A stretch of 64,000 nucleotides of DNA, taken from Candidatus Saccharibacteria bacterium. GTDB taxonomy: Bacteria > Patescibacteriota > Saccharimonadia > Saccharimonadales > Saccharimonadaceae. Of the stretch, positions 50,308 through 61,348 are shown piece after piece. How positions within the stretch are numbered: position 1 is the stretch's first letter; each line of letters starts with the position of its first letter. Position numbers and translations under genes: made by a program. Below the pieces are notes generated by a model. The model was not told the DNA's origin, ran no database searches, and was given only the letters and a program-made list of their open reading frames with translations. The stretch is from contig CP066696.1 of assembly GCA_016432585.1 (NCBI GenBank), forward strand, positions 576,113-640,112, read 5' to 3'.

Positions 50308-50448
50308 TTGACTAATACTAGATTTTATTCTATTATAGATAGTGCTCTGAGCTTTTTTTGACTTCGGTCGAGCGAATACTCACGGGCCCGACAGGAATAG
50401 TACGCATACTCATTGCGTGCGCTACATTTCGAGAGGACGGTGAGCGGC
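50308..50448 (+). promoter_or_regulatory. promoter and leader of GC-rich unit I
   Basis: TTGACT (50308-50313), exactly 17 bp, TATTAT (50331-50336), starting just after the helicase stop. Leader hairpins include TTGAC-TTCG-GTCGA (about 50358-50371, with a UUCG-type loop) and ACGCA / TGCGT around 50404-50420. The SD before the ATG is GGTGAG. Confidence 0.75.
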
Positions 50449-50616
50449 ATGTCCGCGAAACCGCGCACGAAGCCGGCTAATGTCGATGCCAGCAAGAAGC
50501 TGACATCCGACTGCCAGTGGTGCTGCGACAACACCCACCGGGGAATCGCAGGCGCCCTGACGTGCAACGCGTGCAGCAACACCGGCCACAAGCCGAGCTG
50601 CGCCACCCGCACCTAG
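50449..50616 (+). CDS. 55-aa zinc-ribbon-like protein (GC-rich unit I)
   Basis: A 55-residue basic protein: an N-terminal Lys/Arg/Pro stretch MSAKPRTKPANVDASKK, then CQWCCDNTHRGIAGALTCNACSNTGHKPSC. Four Cys arranged as C-x2-C...C-x2-C form a likely zinc ribbon, reminiscent of DnaJ-type zinc centres. The GC-rich codons and own promoter match the other insertion-like units. It could bind nucleic acid or protein; the sequence does not decide. Confidence 0.68.
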   Translation: MSAKPRTKPANVDASKKLTSDCQWCCDNTHRGIAGALTCNACSNTGHKPSCATRT

Positions 50617-50718
50617 CGGTGCTTGAGACGTCTGGACACCCCTGTCCATTCGCAAAATCGGACTATTCCTGTCCGTCTCTCATTGTTCATAATACGACAT
50701 TGTGAATAGCGGGAGACG

Positions 50719-50802: not shown

Positions 50803-50982
50803 ATGCCAAAATCAAACGACAACCAGATATGGGCGGCTATTTCCGCCGTGCGCCATGGCGTTGGCAACGAGGAGGATCGCGAGATCGTCCGAGAAGTGTG
50901 CAAGCGCGATGACGAAATGGGGCGAGCCGCCACAAGGGCGCTGCCCCCTCACGAACGACCGAAAACCGAGGAGGAGACATGA
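50803..50982 (+). CDS. 59-aa protein (GC-rich unit I)
   Basis: A 59-residue soluble protein starting MPKSNDNQIWAAISAVRHGVG and continuing with NEEDREIVREVCKRDDEMG, then RAATRALPPHERPKTEEET. It is highly charged and predicted helical. GGGGAAGAG precedes the ATG. Its stop overlaps the next start by four bases (ATGA), so the two are translationally coupled. The ending EEET is acidic. No family recognised. Confidence 0.6.
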   Translation: MPKSNDNQIWAAISAVRHGVGNEEDREIVREVCKRDDEMGRAATRALPPHERPKTEEET

Positions 50983-51128
50983 GTGAGTCCACGTCTGGAT
51001 CGCGGTTACCCGATCCGGAGGTAAAGCTATGTCCCTGCTGTCAAAAACGATACACCACCTTCAGCAAGTGCCAGACTTGCCGAGGGGCCAAATGCACAAT
51101 CGTCAAATGCAAAGTCAATCCCAAATAG
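50979..51128 (+). CDS. 49-aa zinc-ribbon-like protein (GC-rich unit I)
   Basis: A 49-residue protein with MSESTSGSRLPDPEVKL, then CPCCQKRYTTFSKCQTCRGAKC and a basic tail KCKVNPK. C-x2-C...C-x2-C forms a likely zinc ribbon, and four Lys or Arg residues follow. It overlaps the preceding gene (ATGA). With 50449 it makes two tiny zinc-ribbon genes in one GC-rich stretch, suggesting small nucleic-acid- or protein-binding adaptors. Function unknown. Confidence 0.63.
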   Translation: MSESTSGSRLPDPEVKLCPCCQKRYTTFSKCQTCRGAKCTIVKCKVNPK

Positions 51129-53448: not shown

Positions 53449-55299
53449 TTATGACGACCGGTAGGCTATTTCGTGGTGGCTTGTTTTGTGTGGACCAAAG
53501 AATACCTTGGTGTAAAGCCGTATGGTACTTACCCCCACAAGTAAATATGAGAAGCAGAAGAGCACCACTAGAAACGCTTGACTCTCGGGAATCGAGCTTA
53601 AAAGGACATCCTGCGCTAAGAACGATGGGCTAATAGGAAACGCCATAAAGAGAAGCGCAACAATAAAGAAGATGTTGCCTAGCTTTGTAAATGCATATAT
53701 AGAACCATGGTAATCACGCAGTGCGGTTTGTTCGCCTTTCGCTTCTAGATACCAAAGGCATGCATGACCTACTATAAATGCCGCCAGTACCCCGACACCA
53801 TACATAGCTAGATACTCCCAGCTTCCAGCAGACGCTAAGACTAAGAATAATATACTGAATAGATTTCCTAACATTATAAGATTCCAACATATTTTTGCTG
53901 CATTTTTTGTTGTATACGCCCGTATATAAAAGCCACAACTAACGACCGCGGCGATTGTAGAAACGACAAGCAGCCAGCCAGCGGAAAAATGAGCAAGCGC
54001 AGCACTAGCAAGAACAGCCAGAAATACAATCACCGATATAATCTGAGCTGGGGCTGTATCAAGAACGGCTAATGTCCGGCCAACGAACTTCAACGGCTTC
54101 CATACGTAGTAGCTAACGGTAGCGTTCATGTTCCATTCCTTGATACCCAAAACATACAATGCAGCACGCAGCTTTCCCAAAAACGTGTTCTTGATTTTTT
54201 GGACAGGGGCCACAAAGTGAAAGAACTGGTCGTGAACAAGATAGCCAACGACTGATGGCGAAATAAGCAGCTGATACGTTCGAAGTGAAGCGTTACTTAC
54301 AAAATGAAGTAGGGCGAGCCAGTGAAGTCCGGCGGCAAGTTCTATAAACATTATGCCAATCTGCGTAATTGAAGCGTAGGCAATCTGCGTTTTCACAGAT
54401 GATTGAACCCTCGCGATAGACGATGCGACAACTGCAGTAACAAGACCAACAACCGCAACCGCGATTCGGAGCCACATGTTATCTTCCCATAGAGGGAATG
54501 TTCGTAGGAGTAGGAAAAGCCCCATATGCACCGAAAGTGCGCCATAAAAAATCGCACTCGACGATGTAGGTCCTTCCATGGCGCGCGGCAACCAGTACGA
54601 AAACGGAAATTGCGCCGACTTTATCATAGCCACCATTAATAGCAGAAGGCCGAGGATAAGAATACTGTCTCCATGATGCGCCGCAAGCTCAGAAAACTCT
54701 GAAAAGTTCGCACTTTTCTCGAAGATATGATGCGCATACCATATGGCCGCAAGCAAAAAAGCGTCGCCAATTCGATACACAGAAAAGACTTTTAATGCGT
54801 TTCGCGTTGGCAAAAAGCGATCCCTATAAAAGGCAATGAGCAGTACCGTGCTAATTCCGATAAGTTCCCAACCAACAAAAAGGACTTCAAAATTGCCAGC
54901 AAGAATTATAAGAGACAATCCGATAAAAAAGAGAAGGATGGTACTATAGAATCTCTTAAACCCTTGTTCGCGGTGCAAATAATACTTGCTAAAAATGAAG
55001 ATAAGGGTAGTCATAACAAGGGCCACGCCTAAGAATGTTGCCGCCAGACTATCAAAATAGAAGTCGAGATTAAACACATATTCATGACCTATCAGCAGCG
55101 ACCCGACGCTTGCTAACGCCGGGGAACCGCCGGCACTAAGCCACTGAAAGCCAAACAAGACAAAGATAACGAGCTCTAAAAGCACCGCCGTAATCGCAAC
55201 TCCAAAAATCGTGCGTTCCCATTTTCGTGGCGTAAAAATACAGACAATAAAGCCAAGAATCGGAACAAGCAGCAATGCGGTGAGAAATTGTATTAACAT
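53449..55299 (-). CDS. dabB: DabB/MpsA-type proton-channel subunit (NuoL family)
   Basis: A 616-residue membrane protein with about 14-16 helices. FVGWELIGISTVLLIAFYRDR, FPFSYWLPRAMEGPTSSSAIFYGALSVHMGLFLLLR and KTQIAYASITQIGIMF are the proton-translocating core motifs of the NuoL/MrpA family. Adjacent to dabA, it is the cation-channel half of the DAB complex, which couples an ion gradient to CO2 hydration and bicarbonate accumulation. The N-terminus lies 9 bp after dabA. Its homologues in bacilli (MpsA) power growth at low CO2. Confidence 0.87.
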   Translation of the reverse strand: MLIQFLTALLLVPILGFIVCIFTPRKWERTIFGVAITAVLLELVIFVLFGFQWLSAGGSPALASVGSLLIGHEYVFNLDFYFDSLAATFLGVALVMTTLIFIFSKYYLHREQGFKRFYSTILLFFIGLSLIILAGNFEVLFVGWELIGISTVLLIAFYRDRFLPTRNALKVFSVYRIGDAFLLAAIWYAHHIFEKSANFSEFSELAAHHGDSILILGLLLLMVAMIKSAQFPFSYWLPRAMEGPTSSSAIFYGALSVHMGLFLLLRTFPLWEDNMWLRIAVAVVGLVTAVVASSIARVQSSVKTQIAYASITQIGIMFIELAAGLHWLALLHFVSNASLRTYQLLISPSVVGYLVHDQFFHFVAPVQKIKNTFLGKLRAALYVLGIKEWNMNATVSYYVWKPLKFVGRTLAVLDTAPAQIISVIVFLAVLASAALAHFSAGWLLVVSTIAAVVSCGFYIRAYTTKNAAKICWNLIMLGNLFSILFLVLASAGSWEYLAMYGVGVLAAFIVGHACLWYLEAKGEQTALRDYHGSIYAFTKLGNIFFIVALLFMAFPISPSFLAQDVLLSSIPESQAFLVVLFCFSYLLVGVSTIRLYTKVFFGPHKTSHHEIAYRSS

Positions 55300-55308
55300 A
55301 TTTTATCC

Positions 55309-57861
55309 TTACTTTATTATATGCACGGGCAAATTCTCTTCCGTGGCATCCAAAATGTGGTTCGTTTTCATTTTCTTTGCAGATTCAATTGTATGTGAAA
55401 GGCTGCGCATAGTCGGAATACTCTTTGTTAGGGGATCATATGGCACAAATTTATCGTCTTTCAGAACATGCAACGTTTTTTTGTCTGGATCCAACGCAAC
55501 CAGATGAATCCATTCGTTTGCAAACCACTCGTACAACGCTGGGTTTGACTGTATCACTTTCTTAATGACCGCAGGGTGATGCTCCACTACCATGAGTAGA
55601 CGTACGGGGTCGTGGACCTCAACCATCTGTAGCGGAAGCCCGGAACGAAGATCGCCATCGCTACTGTTTGCCACACCGACAAGCCCCATAACATTGTGAG
55701 GCAGCTTTGTGCCCGCACCAAGTTTGTAGTTATCCGTTCGCGAAAAGTAATACTCCAAGTTAATGCCACCACAAACAACACCAAGGGGAGAAAGAACATT
55801 TAGGAGTAGTGTGCCATCAGGATCGGTCGTATAGTCGTAAGAGTTCAAGAAGGCCCTTCGATCAAGAAACAGACGTTTCGTAAGACTTCGTCGCCCCACA
55901 ATACATAGCGCATTCGTCCCATGACCAAGCTCTGGACGCGGTTCAAAGTAAGACACAGATCGTTTTTTAATGTCTTTTCTAATCTTTTTTATGTGCTGCT
56001 TGGTGCTAATAGACATAAATCGGCGCGAACGTTCCTTCGCATCAAGGTCGAGCGCTTCTTCAAATAAGCGCGCATTCTTACTGTGTCGCTCTTTATTTTC
56101 CTCGCTCAGGATATCTGCGTCGTAAAACTGGATTTCGTCAGACGCCGTATCGTGCAAGGCACTCAGGAACTGCGTAGAATGGGGAATGTCTAGCCCGCGC
56201 GTCTTAAGTACCTCTCGTACAGGCGCATAGTTTGCCATATACGCAAAAACTCGCGCATTAACCATACCAGGCCTTCCACTACACGCACCACAATCATGCG
56301 CGCCATGATGAGGATTGTTAGCGCTGCTCGAGCCGTGGCCTATAACATACACAATCGAAGAAAAATTCTTAGTAAAGCCGATGCATCGAAGCGTTTTTTC
56401 AACACGATCCGCCATCTCTTGCACAGTAAATCCTACCTGCAGGCCTTTTTCGTGATCCTTTTCTCCGGTATGAAGGATTGTCAGGTCAGCATTCGGATCC
56501 ATATGCGCAGATGCATCAGCAATAGCAGGACTCATAGCAGGGTTTATAAGGTTAGCGATCAGTTTGCCCATTGCCGGAATTCCTAACAAGTACGAGAAAA
56601 ACAGGCCTCGCACCAGTTTGTGAGAGTGCTTACTGTACATGATCTCTTTTTCGTGTGCGTGCTTGCCGTCTTTTGGAATCTCTTTAATAAGATATTTTGG
56701 AGTAACCGGAGCGGGGCAAAGCTTATCGTAGAACTTTGCGCCAGCTGGGTGAAAATAGAACTCCACGCCAAAAAAGCCAGGAGCACCGAATGTCTCGGTT
56801 TGATCATCTAAGCTCTCGACATACGTACGTAACGAATACTCTCGGTCATCAATACAAAAGATCGACTGAAAGCTCTTTGGCGCCATATCTTCATTTTTTA
56901 TAGACTGAGCAGGGAGTGTCAGCAACACTCCTGAAAGCACCGTGTCGTAATAACTCCACTCAAAAGCGTCCTGCCATATCTTAATAACTTCTTCTAACTC
57001 CGTAGATGGTTCATCGGCGAACATATCTACTGGTGGCTGTGTTATTCCACTGCCTAGCGGCATCCAGGTATCTGCTAGCCGTTCGGTCAGTGTATCAATC
57101 TCGAGTAGAAGCTCGAGAATTATCATGTCTTCAAGAGATATCTTTTTTGAATACAAAAGCGATTCTGGCTTATCTTCGAGCGTCGATACGATACCAGACC
57201 AGCCTCGGTGCGCAAACTGCTGATCATAGATATACTGTTCAAAATATGATTTGTCGCCAACCAGCATCTCGAGAAGCTTTGTTATAGTGCATGATTTGTC
57301 ATATAAAAGATCGCGTGCTTTTTTTGTTTTGAAAAAACTTATTAAGCTATGACGCTCTAGATCCCTTAGAGCGTTTAAAAGGCCTTTATCTTCGAACGGA
57401 AAGGGCGAAATAGCGATACCTTGATCGATATAGCTACAAATAATACGAAAAAGAAGCGGCTGCACGGCATTATCCATATCGATAAAGTATCGCTGTCTCC
57501 ACTCCTCGCGAAGCCTTCCTATGCGGGGTTGACGTGTCCAGTCGTATTCCTTATACAAAGCTCGCTCATGCCATGTATCAAAAGCAGCGTCGCCCTTACG
57601 CTCTCGTATAACTCTGGCTAGCGTCTTTGGCGTGATCCGCCTAATTGCATAAAGGTCTCTATACTCGGTAAGCGTAAGAGTGGTTTGATACCCAAAAATT
57701 GCAGATGCCTTATAAATTGCATCGTAGAATTTCATGTCTTGAAACGCATGTAGCGTATTGTGATGAACAAAATCTTTTAACGGCCCTTGGGTAGGAAGAT
57801 AATGTTTTAGTGTATGGAGAAGATGTGACTCGTCGAAATGATGATTATTTTTTTCAAACAT
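55309..57861 (-). CDS. dabA: DabA/MpsB-type carbonic anhydrase-like subunit (DUF2309)
   Basis: An 850-residue soluble protein of normal family length. Residues around 335 read FCIDDREYSLR, holding the Cys and Asp of the predicted beta-carbonic-anhydrase-like zinc site; near 508 is YVIGHGSSSANNPHHGAHDCGACSGRPG, with the conserved His and Cys at the other side of the site. It binds the membrane subunit encoded next and hydrates CO2 to bicarbonate in one direction. TTTACA-N16-TAGAAT about 115 bp above the ATG is the probable promoter. This is one of the clearest complete systems in the window. Confidence 0.9.
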   Translation of the reverse strand: MFEKNNHHFDESHLLHTLKHYLPTQGPLKDFVHHNTLHAFQDMKFYDAIYKASAIFGYQTTLTLTEYRDLYAIRRITPKTLARVIRERKGDAAFDTWHERALYKEYDWTRQPRIGRLREEWRQRYFIDMDNAVQPLLFRIICSYIDQGIAISPFPFEDKGLLNALRDLERHSLISFFKTKKARDLLYDKSCTITKLLEMLVGDKSYFEQYIYDQQFAHRGWSGIVSTLEDKPESLLYSKKISLEDMIILELLLEIDTLTERLADTWMPLGSGITQPPVDMFADEPSTELEEVIKIWQDAFEWSYYDTVLSGVLLTLPAQSIKNEDMAPKSFQSIFCIDDREYSLRTYVESLDDQTETFGAPGFFGVEFYFHPAGAKFYDKLCPAPVTPKYLIKEIPKDGKHAHEKEIMYSKHSHKLVRGLFFSYLLGIPAMGKLIANLINPAMSPAIADASAHMDPNADLTILHTGEKDHEKGLQVGFTVQEMADRVEKTLRCIGFTKNFSSIVYVIGHGSSSANNPHHGAHDCGACSGRPGMVNARVFAYMANYAPVREVLKTRGLDIPHSTQFLSALHDTASDEIQFYDADILSEENKERHSKNARLFEEALDLDAKERSRRFMSISTKQHIKKIRKDIKKRSVSYFEPRPELGHGTNALCIVGRRSLTKRLFLDRRAFLNSYDYTTDPDGTLLLNVLSPLGVVCGGINLEYYFSRTDNYKLGAGTKLPHNVMGLVGVANSSDGDLRSGLPLQMVEVHDPVRLLMVVEHHPAVIKKVIQSNPALYEWFANEWIHLVALDPDKKTLHVLKDDKFVPYDPLTKSIPTMRSLSHTIESAKKMKTNHILDATEENLPVHIIK

Positions 57862-58081: not shown

Positions 58082-58507
58082 TTACGATCGGCGGTGACGG
58101 CGGCGAAGATCGGCAACTTTAAGTCGTACCGAGTGGCGATCAACAAGCTGATGCGCTTTCTCGAGCTCGACTTGGTCTTTAGCGTTCTCACGCATTTCCA
58201 TTGCACGTTCGAGTGCTGCACGGCTTTCAGATTCAATAATATCTTCACCGTGATCAGCCTCATCTACAAGAACACGAACGCGCTTTTGCGAAACTTCAAC
58301 AACTCCGCCACTAATCGCAAAGAAATCTAGCTGAGAGTCTGGATCGCCCTTTTTATAGCGAACGGCAATGGCGCCAGGAACAGCGATAGTAACAAGTGGC
58401 TCATGATCAGGGAATACTGCAATTTCACCAGCAGCAGTCGGAATCATGACTTCGTATACTTCTTGGTCAACTTTTTTGCCAAGAAGAGTAATAAGTTCTA
58501 AATTCAT
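58082..58507 (-). CDS. atpC: F-type ATP synthase subunit epsilon
   Basis: A 141-residue cytoplasmic subunit of the F1 stalk. The N-terminal beta sandwich has EVMIPTAAGEIAVFPDHEPLVTI and AISGGVVEV, and the C-terminal helical hairpin has ESRAALERAMEMRENAKDQVELEKAH. It normally follows atpD directly, but here a GC-rich gene and several terminators lie between them. AGGAG precedes the ATG and TACTAT lies about 16 nt above it, so it may have its own weak promoter. It regulates ATP hydrolysis. Confidence 0.92.
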   Translation of the reverse strand: MNLELITLLGKKVDQEVYEVMIPTAAGEIAVFPDHEPLVTIAVPGAIAVRYKKGDPDSQLDFFAISGGVVEVSQKRVRVLVDEADHGEDIIESESRAALERAMEMRENAKDQVELEKAHQLVDRHSVRLKVADLRRRHRRS

Positions 58508-58525
58508 ATCAACTCCTATAGTAGC

Positions 58526-58547
58526 AAAAAAACTCGCACATGGCGAG
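58526..58547 (-). terminator. intrinsic terminator between GC-rich unit J and atpC
   Basis: On the minus strand CTCGC-CATGT-GCGAG followed by seven T residues, about 19 bases above the atpC start. A second, longer hairpin, GGGCGGAG / CTCCGCCC with an inner GGTCGC / GCGACC (58584-58621), lies just after the unit J stop. Confidence 0.85.
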
Positions 58548-58627
58548 AGGTGATATGGGGAAGTGATAGATAGTCCCCAGCGTGGGCGGAGACGAGGTCG
58601 CGTAGCGACCTGCCTCCGCCCGTTCGC

Positions 58628-58954
58628 TCACTTCGTGGACATGAAGTATGTCCAGAAGAGGACCGACCCGACCACCGAGATGAGCAGAACGACGAACCAG
58701 AGGAGCGAGAAGTGCTTGCCTCGGAAACGTCGAACCACCCAGGCGATGGTCAGGATCGGCGCGCCGAACATGAAGTACATCTGCACCGTGAGCGGAACCA
58801 GACCACCCCACCAGCAGATCCAGAGCACCAGCAAGGTGACCGGAATGCCGATGAGCAGTGGAACGAAGTTGCCCTTGGGCTGCTTCGTGGGCTCCTCCTG
58901 AAACACGGGCGGGTCGTAGGGGTTGGGACGTCGCGGTCGCGAGTCGCTGGGCAT
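58628..58954 (-). CDS. three-helix membrane protein (GC-rich unit J) inside the atp operon
   Basis: A 108-residue protein. A Pro/Arg/Asp-rich N-terminus (MPSDSRPRRPNPYDPPVFQEE, to about residue 27) is followed by three helices (about 30-50, 54-72 and 80-104) with aromatic interior (WICWWGG). GGAGG lies 4 nt above the ATG. GC-rich codons differ from the flanking atp genes. It sits on the same strand between atpD and atpC with its own promoter and two 3' hairpins. It is not a known ATP synthase subunit. A link to the synthase is unproven. Confidence 0.75.
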   Translation of the reverse strand: MPSDSRPRRPNPYDPPVFQEEPTKQPKGNFVPLLIGIPVTLLVLWICWWGGLVPLTVQMYFMFGAPILTIAWVVRRFRGKHFSLLWFVVLLISVVGSVLFWTYFMSTK

Positions 58955-59035
58955 TGTGCCTCCAGGTTGCGGGAACTATCTATCGGTTGAACGATTGTTC
59001 ACCATAATTATATCATAAATTACTGTAAAAAGCAA
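58955..59035 (-). promoter_or_regulatory. promoter and leader of GC-rich unit J
   Basis: On the minus strand TTGCTT (59030-59035), exactly 17 bp, TATAAT (59007-59012). The hairpin TGAAC-AATC-GTTCA (58988-59001) begins at the predicted transcription start. GGAGG precedes the ATG. Confidence 0.8.
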
Positions 59036-59041
59036 TAATCT

Positions 59042-59075
59042 AAAAACAACCCGCCTGCATAGGCGGGTTGTTTTA
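59042..59075. terminator. bidirectional intrinsic terminator after atpD
   Basis: An 11-bp stem ACAACCCGCCT / AGGCGGGTTGT with GCAT loop and A/T runs on both sides. On the minus strand it ends the atpD transcript 13 bases after the stop. Confidence 0.9.
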
Positions 59076-59087
59076 GTAGAAAACTGA

Positions 59088-61348
<2,261 letters not shown>

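Follow-up and report, generated by a model that had tools for sequence, protein, structure and literature searches.

A predicted closed-loop transcription unit between the atpD and atpC genes in part of the Saccharibacteria

The ATP synthase operon of a Candidatus Saccharibacteria bacterium is split between atpD and atpC by a separate transcription unit, as was claimed in an earlier note on the 64,000-nucleotide stretch of DNA analyzed here (the window). The preferred explanation, held with slightly better than even confidence, is that the insert is a closed-loop unit fixed at this site, that the epsilon subunit is expressed from a promoter of its own and that the unit belongs to a small class with variable cargo. 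The architecture of the unit, its covarying closing helix, the two terminators and a conserved promoter-like box before atpC have been documented by comparing sequences among relatives. In part of the Saccharibacteria, the insert would be an independent transcription unit with a fixed place at the atpD-atpC junction. The mRNA of this unit would carry a hairpin at the start and a terminator at the end, and a helix of 12-17 bp between the 5' and 3' UTRs would close it into a loop around a fast-evolving gene for a small membrane protein.

The genome around the window consists of 952,504 bp in a single contig, and the beta subunit encoded in the window shows 91% identity with that of a Candidatus Saccharibacteria genome. 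The gene order of ATP synthase is among the most conserved in bacteria. In the window, the order of the genes on the minus strand is atpA, atpG, atpD, the insert, atpC, dabA and a dabB-like gene. The genes atpD (59088-60470, minus strand; TIGR01039, E = 7e-224) and atpC (58082-58507, minus strand; TIGR01216, E = 9e-24) encode the beta and epsilon subunits, respectively. They are separated by a gap of 580 bp and are not adjacent as in the standard F-type ATP synthase operon. An AtpZ-like open reading frame (PF09527) is present at its usual place, before atpB, in the same genome. The dabA gene (inorganic carbon transporter, PF10070) and the dabB-like gene are located directly after atpC at 53449-57861. 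Genes of this kind also occur near the atp genes in L074 (dabA and part of dabB) and in G036 (L137), which has dabA beside atpC; apart from these two, no dab genes were found beside atpC in the other loci searched.

Sequence inspection and folding recovered the elements described in the earlier note at their places, namely a bidirectional terminator, a promoter, a three-helix open reading frame, a long hairpin and a second terminator. The bidirectional intrinsic terminator after atpD (59043-59074) contains a perfect 14-bp inverted repeat with a 4-nt loop and is T-rich on both sides. The putative promoter of the small gene (59007-59035, minus strand) is composed of TTGCTT, 17 nt and the extended -10 box TGATATAAT (TATAAT with a TGn extension), and extended -10 boxes of this kind also precede the small genes in most relatives. 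The remaining parts of the unit are likewise read from the minus strand. Folding predicts a 5' hairpin of the mRNA, P1 (GGTGAACAATCGTTCAACC, 58985-59003), and a hairpin at this position is present in most relatives folded. The 5' strand of the closing helix P2 (GATAGATAGTTCCCG, 58970-58984) is predicted to pair over 15 bp with the 3' strand (TGGGGACTATCTATC, 58565-58579), with covariation in eight species. Between these two strands lie the ribosome-binding site TGGAGG (58959-58964), the open reading frame of a 108-aa membrane protein (58628-58954) with three predicted helices (31-49, 53-76 and 82-107) and a GC-rich hairpin, P3, directly past the stop codon (58584-58621). The T-tract of the small-gene terminator (58526-58547) runs straight into the atpC promoter, a layout that is shared by most large-gap relatives, and the extended -10 box of atpC (TGCTACTAT, 58518-58526) is located 10 nt before the ATG. 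This box, the complementary ends of the small-gene mRNA and a second unit at 50390-50673 are additions to the earlier note. The fold of the whole insert transcript has a z-score of -7.6 relative to dinucleotide shuffles. A promoter-like site on the plus strand (58987-59016) points away from the mRNA body, and a consensus scan found 5 sites in the region against 2.8 expected. Rfam matches to the insert RNA were far below the gathering score, and a known RNA family was rejected on this basis.

The closing helix was aligned in eight species (the window, L031, L032, L114, L115, L117, L118 and L116). It opens with an invariant GATAG/CTATC and continues with bases that differ between the species and still match each other. 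Pairing was found in 97.9% of the cells of this alignment, compared with 79.0% in shuffles and 29-38% when the strands were slid by one to three bases. Compensatory changes occur at six of the 12 pairs, and the covariation was 0.50 versus 0.085, a value that none of 500 shuffles reached in a control that leaves the kinship of the species in. Own-species pairing exceeded every cross-species pairing in the window, L031, L032, L114, L117 and L116, and all but one in L118. The 12 non-Watson-Crick cells comprised five G-U pairs, no A-C pairs and seven of other kinds; the presence of G-U without A-C mismatches leans towards a helix formed in the sense-strand RNA. When whole transcripts were folded, the mean pairing probability of the GATAG stretch was 1.00 in all eight species.

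In L032, L114 and L115, the closing helix takes in all or part of the ribosome-binding site; in the window this site is located just outside the helix. An 11-bp helix (TAGGTAGGAGG x CCTCCTACCTA) over the ribosome-binding site of G069 was read by eye; since MAFFT misplaced this helix, it was excluded from the covariation count. The clade around the window, L116 and G069 show the helix clearly. End pairing is also predicted in L119, L121 and L057, where it is non-significant on its own, and the helix is weak or absent in L120, L063, L055 and L039. Inverted repeats of this strength are frequent by chance (7-24 per shuffled strand in a blind scan), and a blind search for closing helices was dropped because chance matches were so numerous that a single sequence did not suffice to recognize units. 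What makes the end pairing credible is where it lies and how it covaries in relatives; its strength in a single sequence does not.

The inserted gene differs in composition from its neighbours. Its GC3 in the window is 0.84-0.85, compared with 0.53-0.54 for atpD and 0.32-0.34 for atpC. Over 15 loci, the mean GC3 was 0.70 for the inserted genes and 0.54 for atpD (Wilcoxon p = 6e-4, which is optimistic because the 15 loci are related). The high GC is not universal, as the inserted genes of L032, L114, L055 and L039 are close to the atpD value. The gene was earlier called foreign-looking, which holds for its composition; it is not a one-off, since units built in the same way, with proteins that can hardly be aligned, are found in the closest relatives.

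Such a gene could also be a mobile cassette or moron, i.e., a gene of foreign origin, equipped with a promoter and a terminator and bounded by terminal inverted repeats, that moved into the junction. The foreign codon usage, the inverted repeats at the ends, a patchy distribution that requires at least 12 changes on the tree, cargo that can hardly be aligned between close relatives and the other genes found in some gaps (an MFS transporter and a carbonic-anhydrase-like protein) all agree with this explanation, which is nonetheless clearly improbable. The repeats vary and co-vary between species and do not share one end sequence. No transposase or recombinase gene lies in the 580-bp insert, which has no plasmid or phage relative, and visual inspection of its ends showed no target-site duplication. 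In six of eight genomes, convergent GATAGATAG pairs (within 1 kb) were confined to the atpD-atpC site, and the remaining two genomes had none; GATAGATAGTYCCC occurs in the window's own genome at this site only. Because the helix motif pairs up at no other place in the genomes tested, the insert is not a dispersed mobile element. An identity of the arms as DNA terminal repeats of such an element was rejected, since they co-vary and are single-copy. Phage morons and integron cassettes are likewise single foreign-looking genes with their own promoter and terminator between conserved genes, whereas the insert is not dispersed, lacks a recombinase and has ends that co-vary as a helix.

The atpD-atpC junction was compared in 80 atpD loci from public genomes and in further loci from the family, with some genomes entered twice, once per collection. 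Among 102 Saccharibacteria junctions, 71 are compact (20 bp or less), six have gaps of 21-200 bp and 25 have gaps of more than 200 bp, so the adjacency of the two genes that had been taken as normal is borne out. The atpC promoter box, defined as an extended -10 TGnTAnnnT that ends 6-10 nt before the atpC start codon, was found at 22 of the 25 large-gap junctions and at none of the 71 compact ones. A ribosome-binding site of atpC was found at 48 of the 71 compact junctions versus four of the 25 long ones. Given this distribution of the box, epsilon is most likely expressed from a near-leaderless promoter of its own, as predicted from these sequences. It would be transcribed independently of atpD, with a leader of roughly 0-4 nt, and need not depend on read-through or on a weak promoter, as had been supposed. 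In leaderless bacterial transcripts in general, a -10 box likewise precedes the start codon by 6-10 nt; unlike these, the atpC box is present only where the operon is split among the junctions compared.

Split junctions cluster on a tree of beta plus epsilon, but no fewer than 12 changes are required to account for them. Nearly all members of the clade around the window have a split junction, with the compact L145 as the exception, and the distribution in other groups is patchy. The locus L033 is without the small gene, yet has the terminators and the atpC promoter box. The box is also present with inserts that lack a small membrane gene (L056, L082, L102, L067 and L146), which would fit a neutral horizontal insertion that is tolerated at the site, the atpC promoter having arisen only to rescue the expression of epsilon. 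Such an origin is very improbable, as the covariation of the closing helix and the coding-type substitutions described below point to selection on the unit itself.

Several gaps differ in content from that of the window. The gap of G036 contains an MFS transporter gene in addition to a small gene. In L102, a cadmium-carbonic-anhydrase-like protein (PF18484, E = 4e-7) is encoded, and an atpC promoter box of the same type follows. The gap of L067 (3737 bp) holds several minus-strand open reading frames, one of which (525 aa) resembles a MoxR-type ATPase by eye. The gaps of L056 and L146 (431 and 391 bp, respectively) have no clear forward open reading frame and share hairpin-rich stretches that are possibly non-coding RNA; no Rfam match at E 0.1 was found for these inserts, which were searched as L130 and L122. 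Gaps of 140-147 bp in L061, L081 and L101 have similar hairpin-rich sequence together with an atpC ribosome-binding site, and represent a further type of insertion at this site. A match to atpC at E 1e-40 was found in just 132 of 394 family genomes; many genomes of the family may lack ATP synthase or carry a diverged epsilon.

The proteins encoded by the inserted genes are 90-191 aa long; in them, a polar N-terminus is followed by two to five hydrophobic helices, in most cases three. Small multi-helix membrane proteins of similar shape are encoded at the same site and in the same orientation in about 16 loci, and the inserts are nearly unalignable between close relatives despite synthase proteins that are 90% identical. 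The window protein matched no Pfam family at E<1 and no NCBIfam family above the cut-off (a sub-cut-off match had E = 0.04). No match was found in PHROGs, PADLOC, phages or plasmids, and a phage, plasmid or defence origin of the protein was rejected. The small membrane proteins of nine relatives gave no Pfam match above the cut-off, and a search of 198 family genomes for homologues of the window protein returned weak partial matches only. Weak similarity to the window protein was detected in L057 (E = 0.001), L121 (E = 0.003) and G069 (E = 0.002). With leave-one-out profiles, the left-out protein ranked first in seven of 17 cases. It is possible, judging from these comparisons, that all of the small proteins belong to a single family. 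In the alignable pair L039/L055, substitutions at codon positions 1, 2 and 3 numbered 36, 22 and 58, respectively, which is a coding-type pattern. The interiors of the open reading frames are more structured than synonymous shuffles (mean z of -2.3 versus -0.5 for atpC). A structure model of the 108-aa protein has three helices and a pTM of 0.30, which is too weak for use in a fold search.

These proteins might represent an accessory ATP synthase protein, i.e., a positional orthologue that evolves fast, cooperates with the synthase and has a functional place in the operon. The recurrence of a similar shape at one site and in one orientation, the detectable similarity among some of the proteins and the coding-type substitutions in one alignable pair are consistent with such a role. 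It is unlikely, as the gene is absent from most relatives and is parted from the operon by terminators, the usual accessory subunit AtpZ is already encoded before atpB and no conserved motif was seen among the small proteins. AtpI and AtpZ (PF09527) are likewise small membrane proteins with several helices, and their genes also lie in the atp operon, but the 108-aa protein has no sequence match. A relocated AtpI/AtpZ was rejected because the protein matches no Pfam family and the AtpZ match belongs to another open reading frame. Coordinated expression of the small gene with the synthase, which had been suggested earlier, is not favoured because terminators lie on both sides of the gene. The plainest guess is that the small protein acts in the membrane at a low level, perhaps in connection with the proton gradient or the synthase.

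A second closed-loop unit (50390-50673, plus strand) is predicted 8 kb from the insert, between a uvrD-like helicase gene and dusB. Its arms, GACAGGAATAGTACG (50390-50404) and CGGACTATTCCTGTC (50659-50673), form an inverted repeat with compensatory changes in 15 species and enclose a 55-aa cysteine-rich open reading frame (50449-50616, plus strand; GC3 0.88) that has no Pfam match. An exact inverted-repeat scan of 900 kb found a strong excess of arms with GACAG (20 versus 0.9) and with GATAG (14 versus 1.1). Most of these arms are located between uvrD-like and dusB genes, near the atp operon, where they flank short high-GC stretches containing small cysteine-rich or helical open reading frames and sometimes tRNA-like genes. 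The uvrD-dusB site is conserved across the Saccharibacteria, with changing content. In the GACAG-type helix of the 15 species, positions 0-9 are always paired and compensatory changes occur at positions 5-11; the pairing percentage is no test because the species were chosen for pairing, and the weight of the case is carried by the compensatory changes and the motif excess. The convergent uvrD-dusB pair occurs once per genome in G000, G023, G104 and G157, the four genomes out of 12 in which both arms match the pattern. No third unit with such arms stood out in the window's own genome, which was read whole. Directly past the second unit (50803-51128), two short open reading frames of 59 and 49 aa (GC3 0.60-0.65) were observed; the second is cysteine-rich and has no Pfam match.

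Since the second unit has the same design and a different cargo, the two would belong to a small class of closed-loop units in which the site is fixed and the cargo varies. It is possible, though doubtful, that they define a new class at atpD-atpC and uvrD-dusB in which the covarying 5'-3' helix is kept and the enclosed high-GC small genes (at uvrD-dusB also tRNA-like genes) are exchanged between species.

In the proposed mechanism, the closing helix would form only once the 3' end has been made, and ribosomes would load mainly on the nascent mRNA. As the 3' strand is the last part to be synthesized and the helix covers or adjoins the ribosome-binding site, translation would be mostly limited to the growing transcript. 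The finished mRNA, with hairpins at both ends, would be stable but poorly translated, like fold-back-inhibited mRNAs. In the hok/sok and aapA-type mRNAs of type I toxin-antitoxin systems, the 5' and 3' ends pair near the ribosome-binding site. The insert likewise has a short mRNA for a small membrane protein with ends that are predicted, from covariation, to pair at this place, and we infer that end pairing restrains translation in a hok-like manner. Unlike these systems, the insert encodes larger proteins and variable cargo, no antisense RNA or other regulator was found, and it occupies a fixed single site between housekeeping genes with a terminator-promoter hand-off to atpC. The insert is hok-like in its presumed working but is probably not a member of that class. 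A type I toxin-antitoxin-like unit in the stricter sense, with a small membrane-acting toxin whose mRNA is kept inactive by end pairing, is hardly probable at all. The small hydrophobic protein, the predicted 5'-3' paired mRNA and the ribosome-binding site within the helix in several species agree with it, but no antisense RNA gene was identified, the site is single and chromosomal, and proteins of 90-191 aa with two to five helices are longer than type I toxins are known to be.

No description of atpD-atpC splitting by closed-loop units was found in the openly licensed literature, in which nothing relevant was found on leaderless genes, atpC, start sites, inverted repeats or small membrane proteins of Saccharibacteria. 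The epsilon subunit restrains ATP hydrolysis. With atpC frequently separated from the operon and under a predicted near-leaderless promoter of its own, this lineage is a natural test of a separately tuned epsilon dose. The closed-loop units provide testable small-protein genes with an unusual predicted mRNA design in cultivable episymbionts. If the class is true, it would be a dedicated way to express small proteins that change quickly, which may be connected with living on high-GC actinobacterial hosts.
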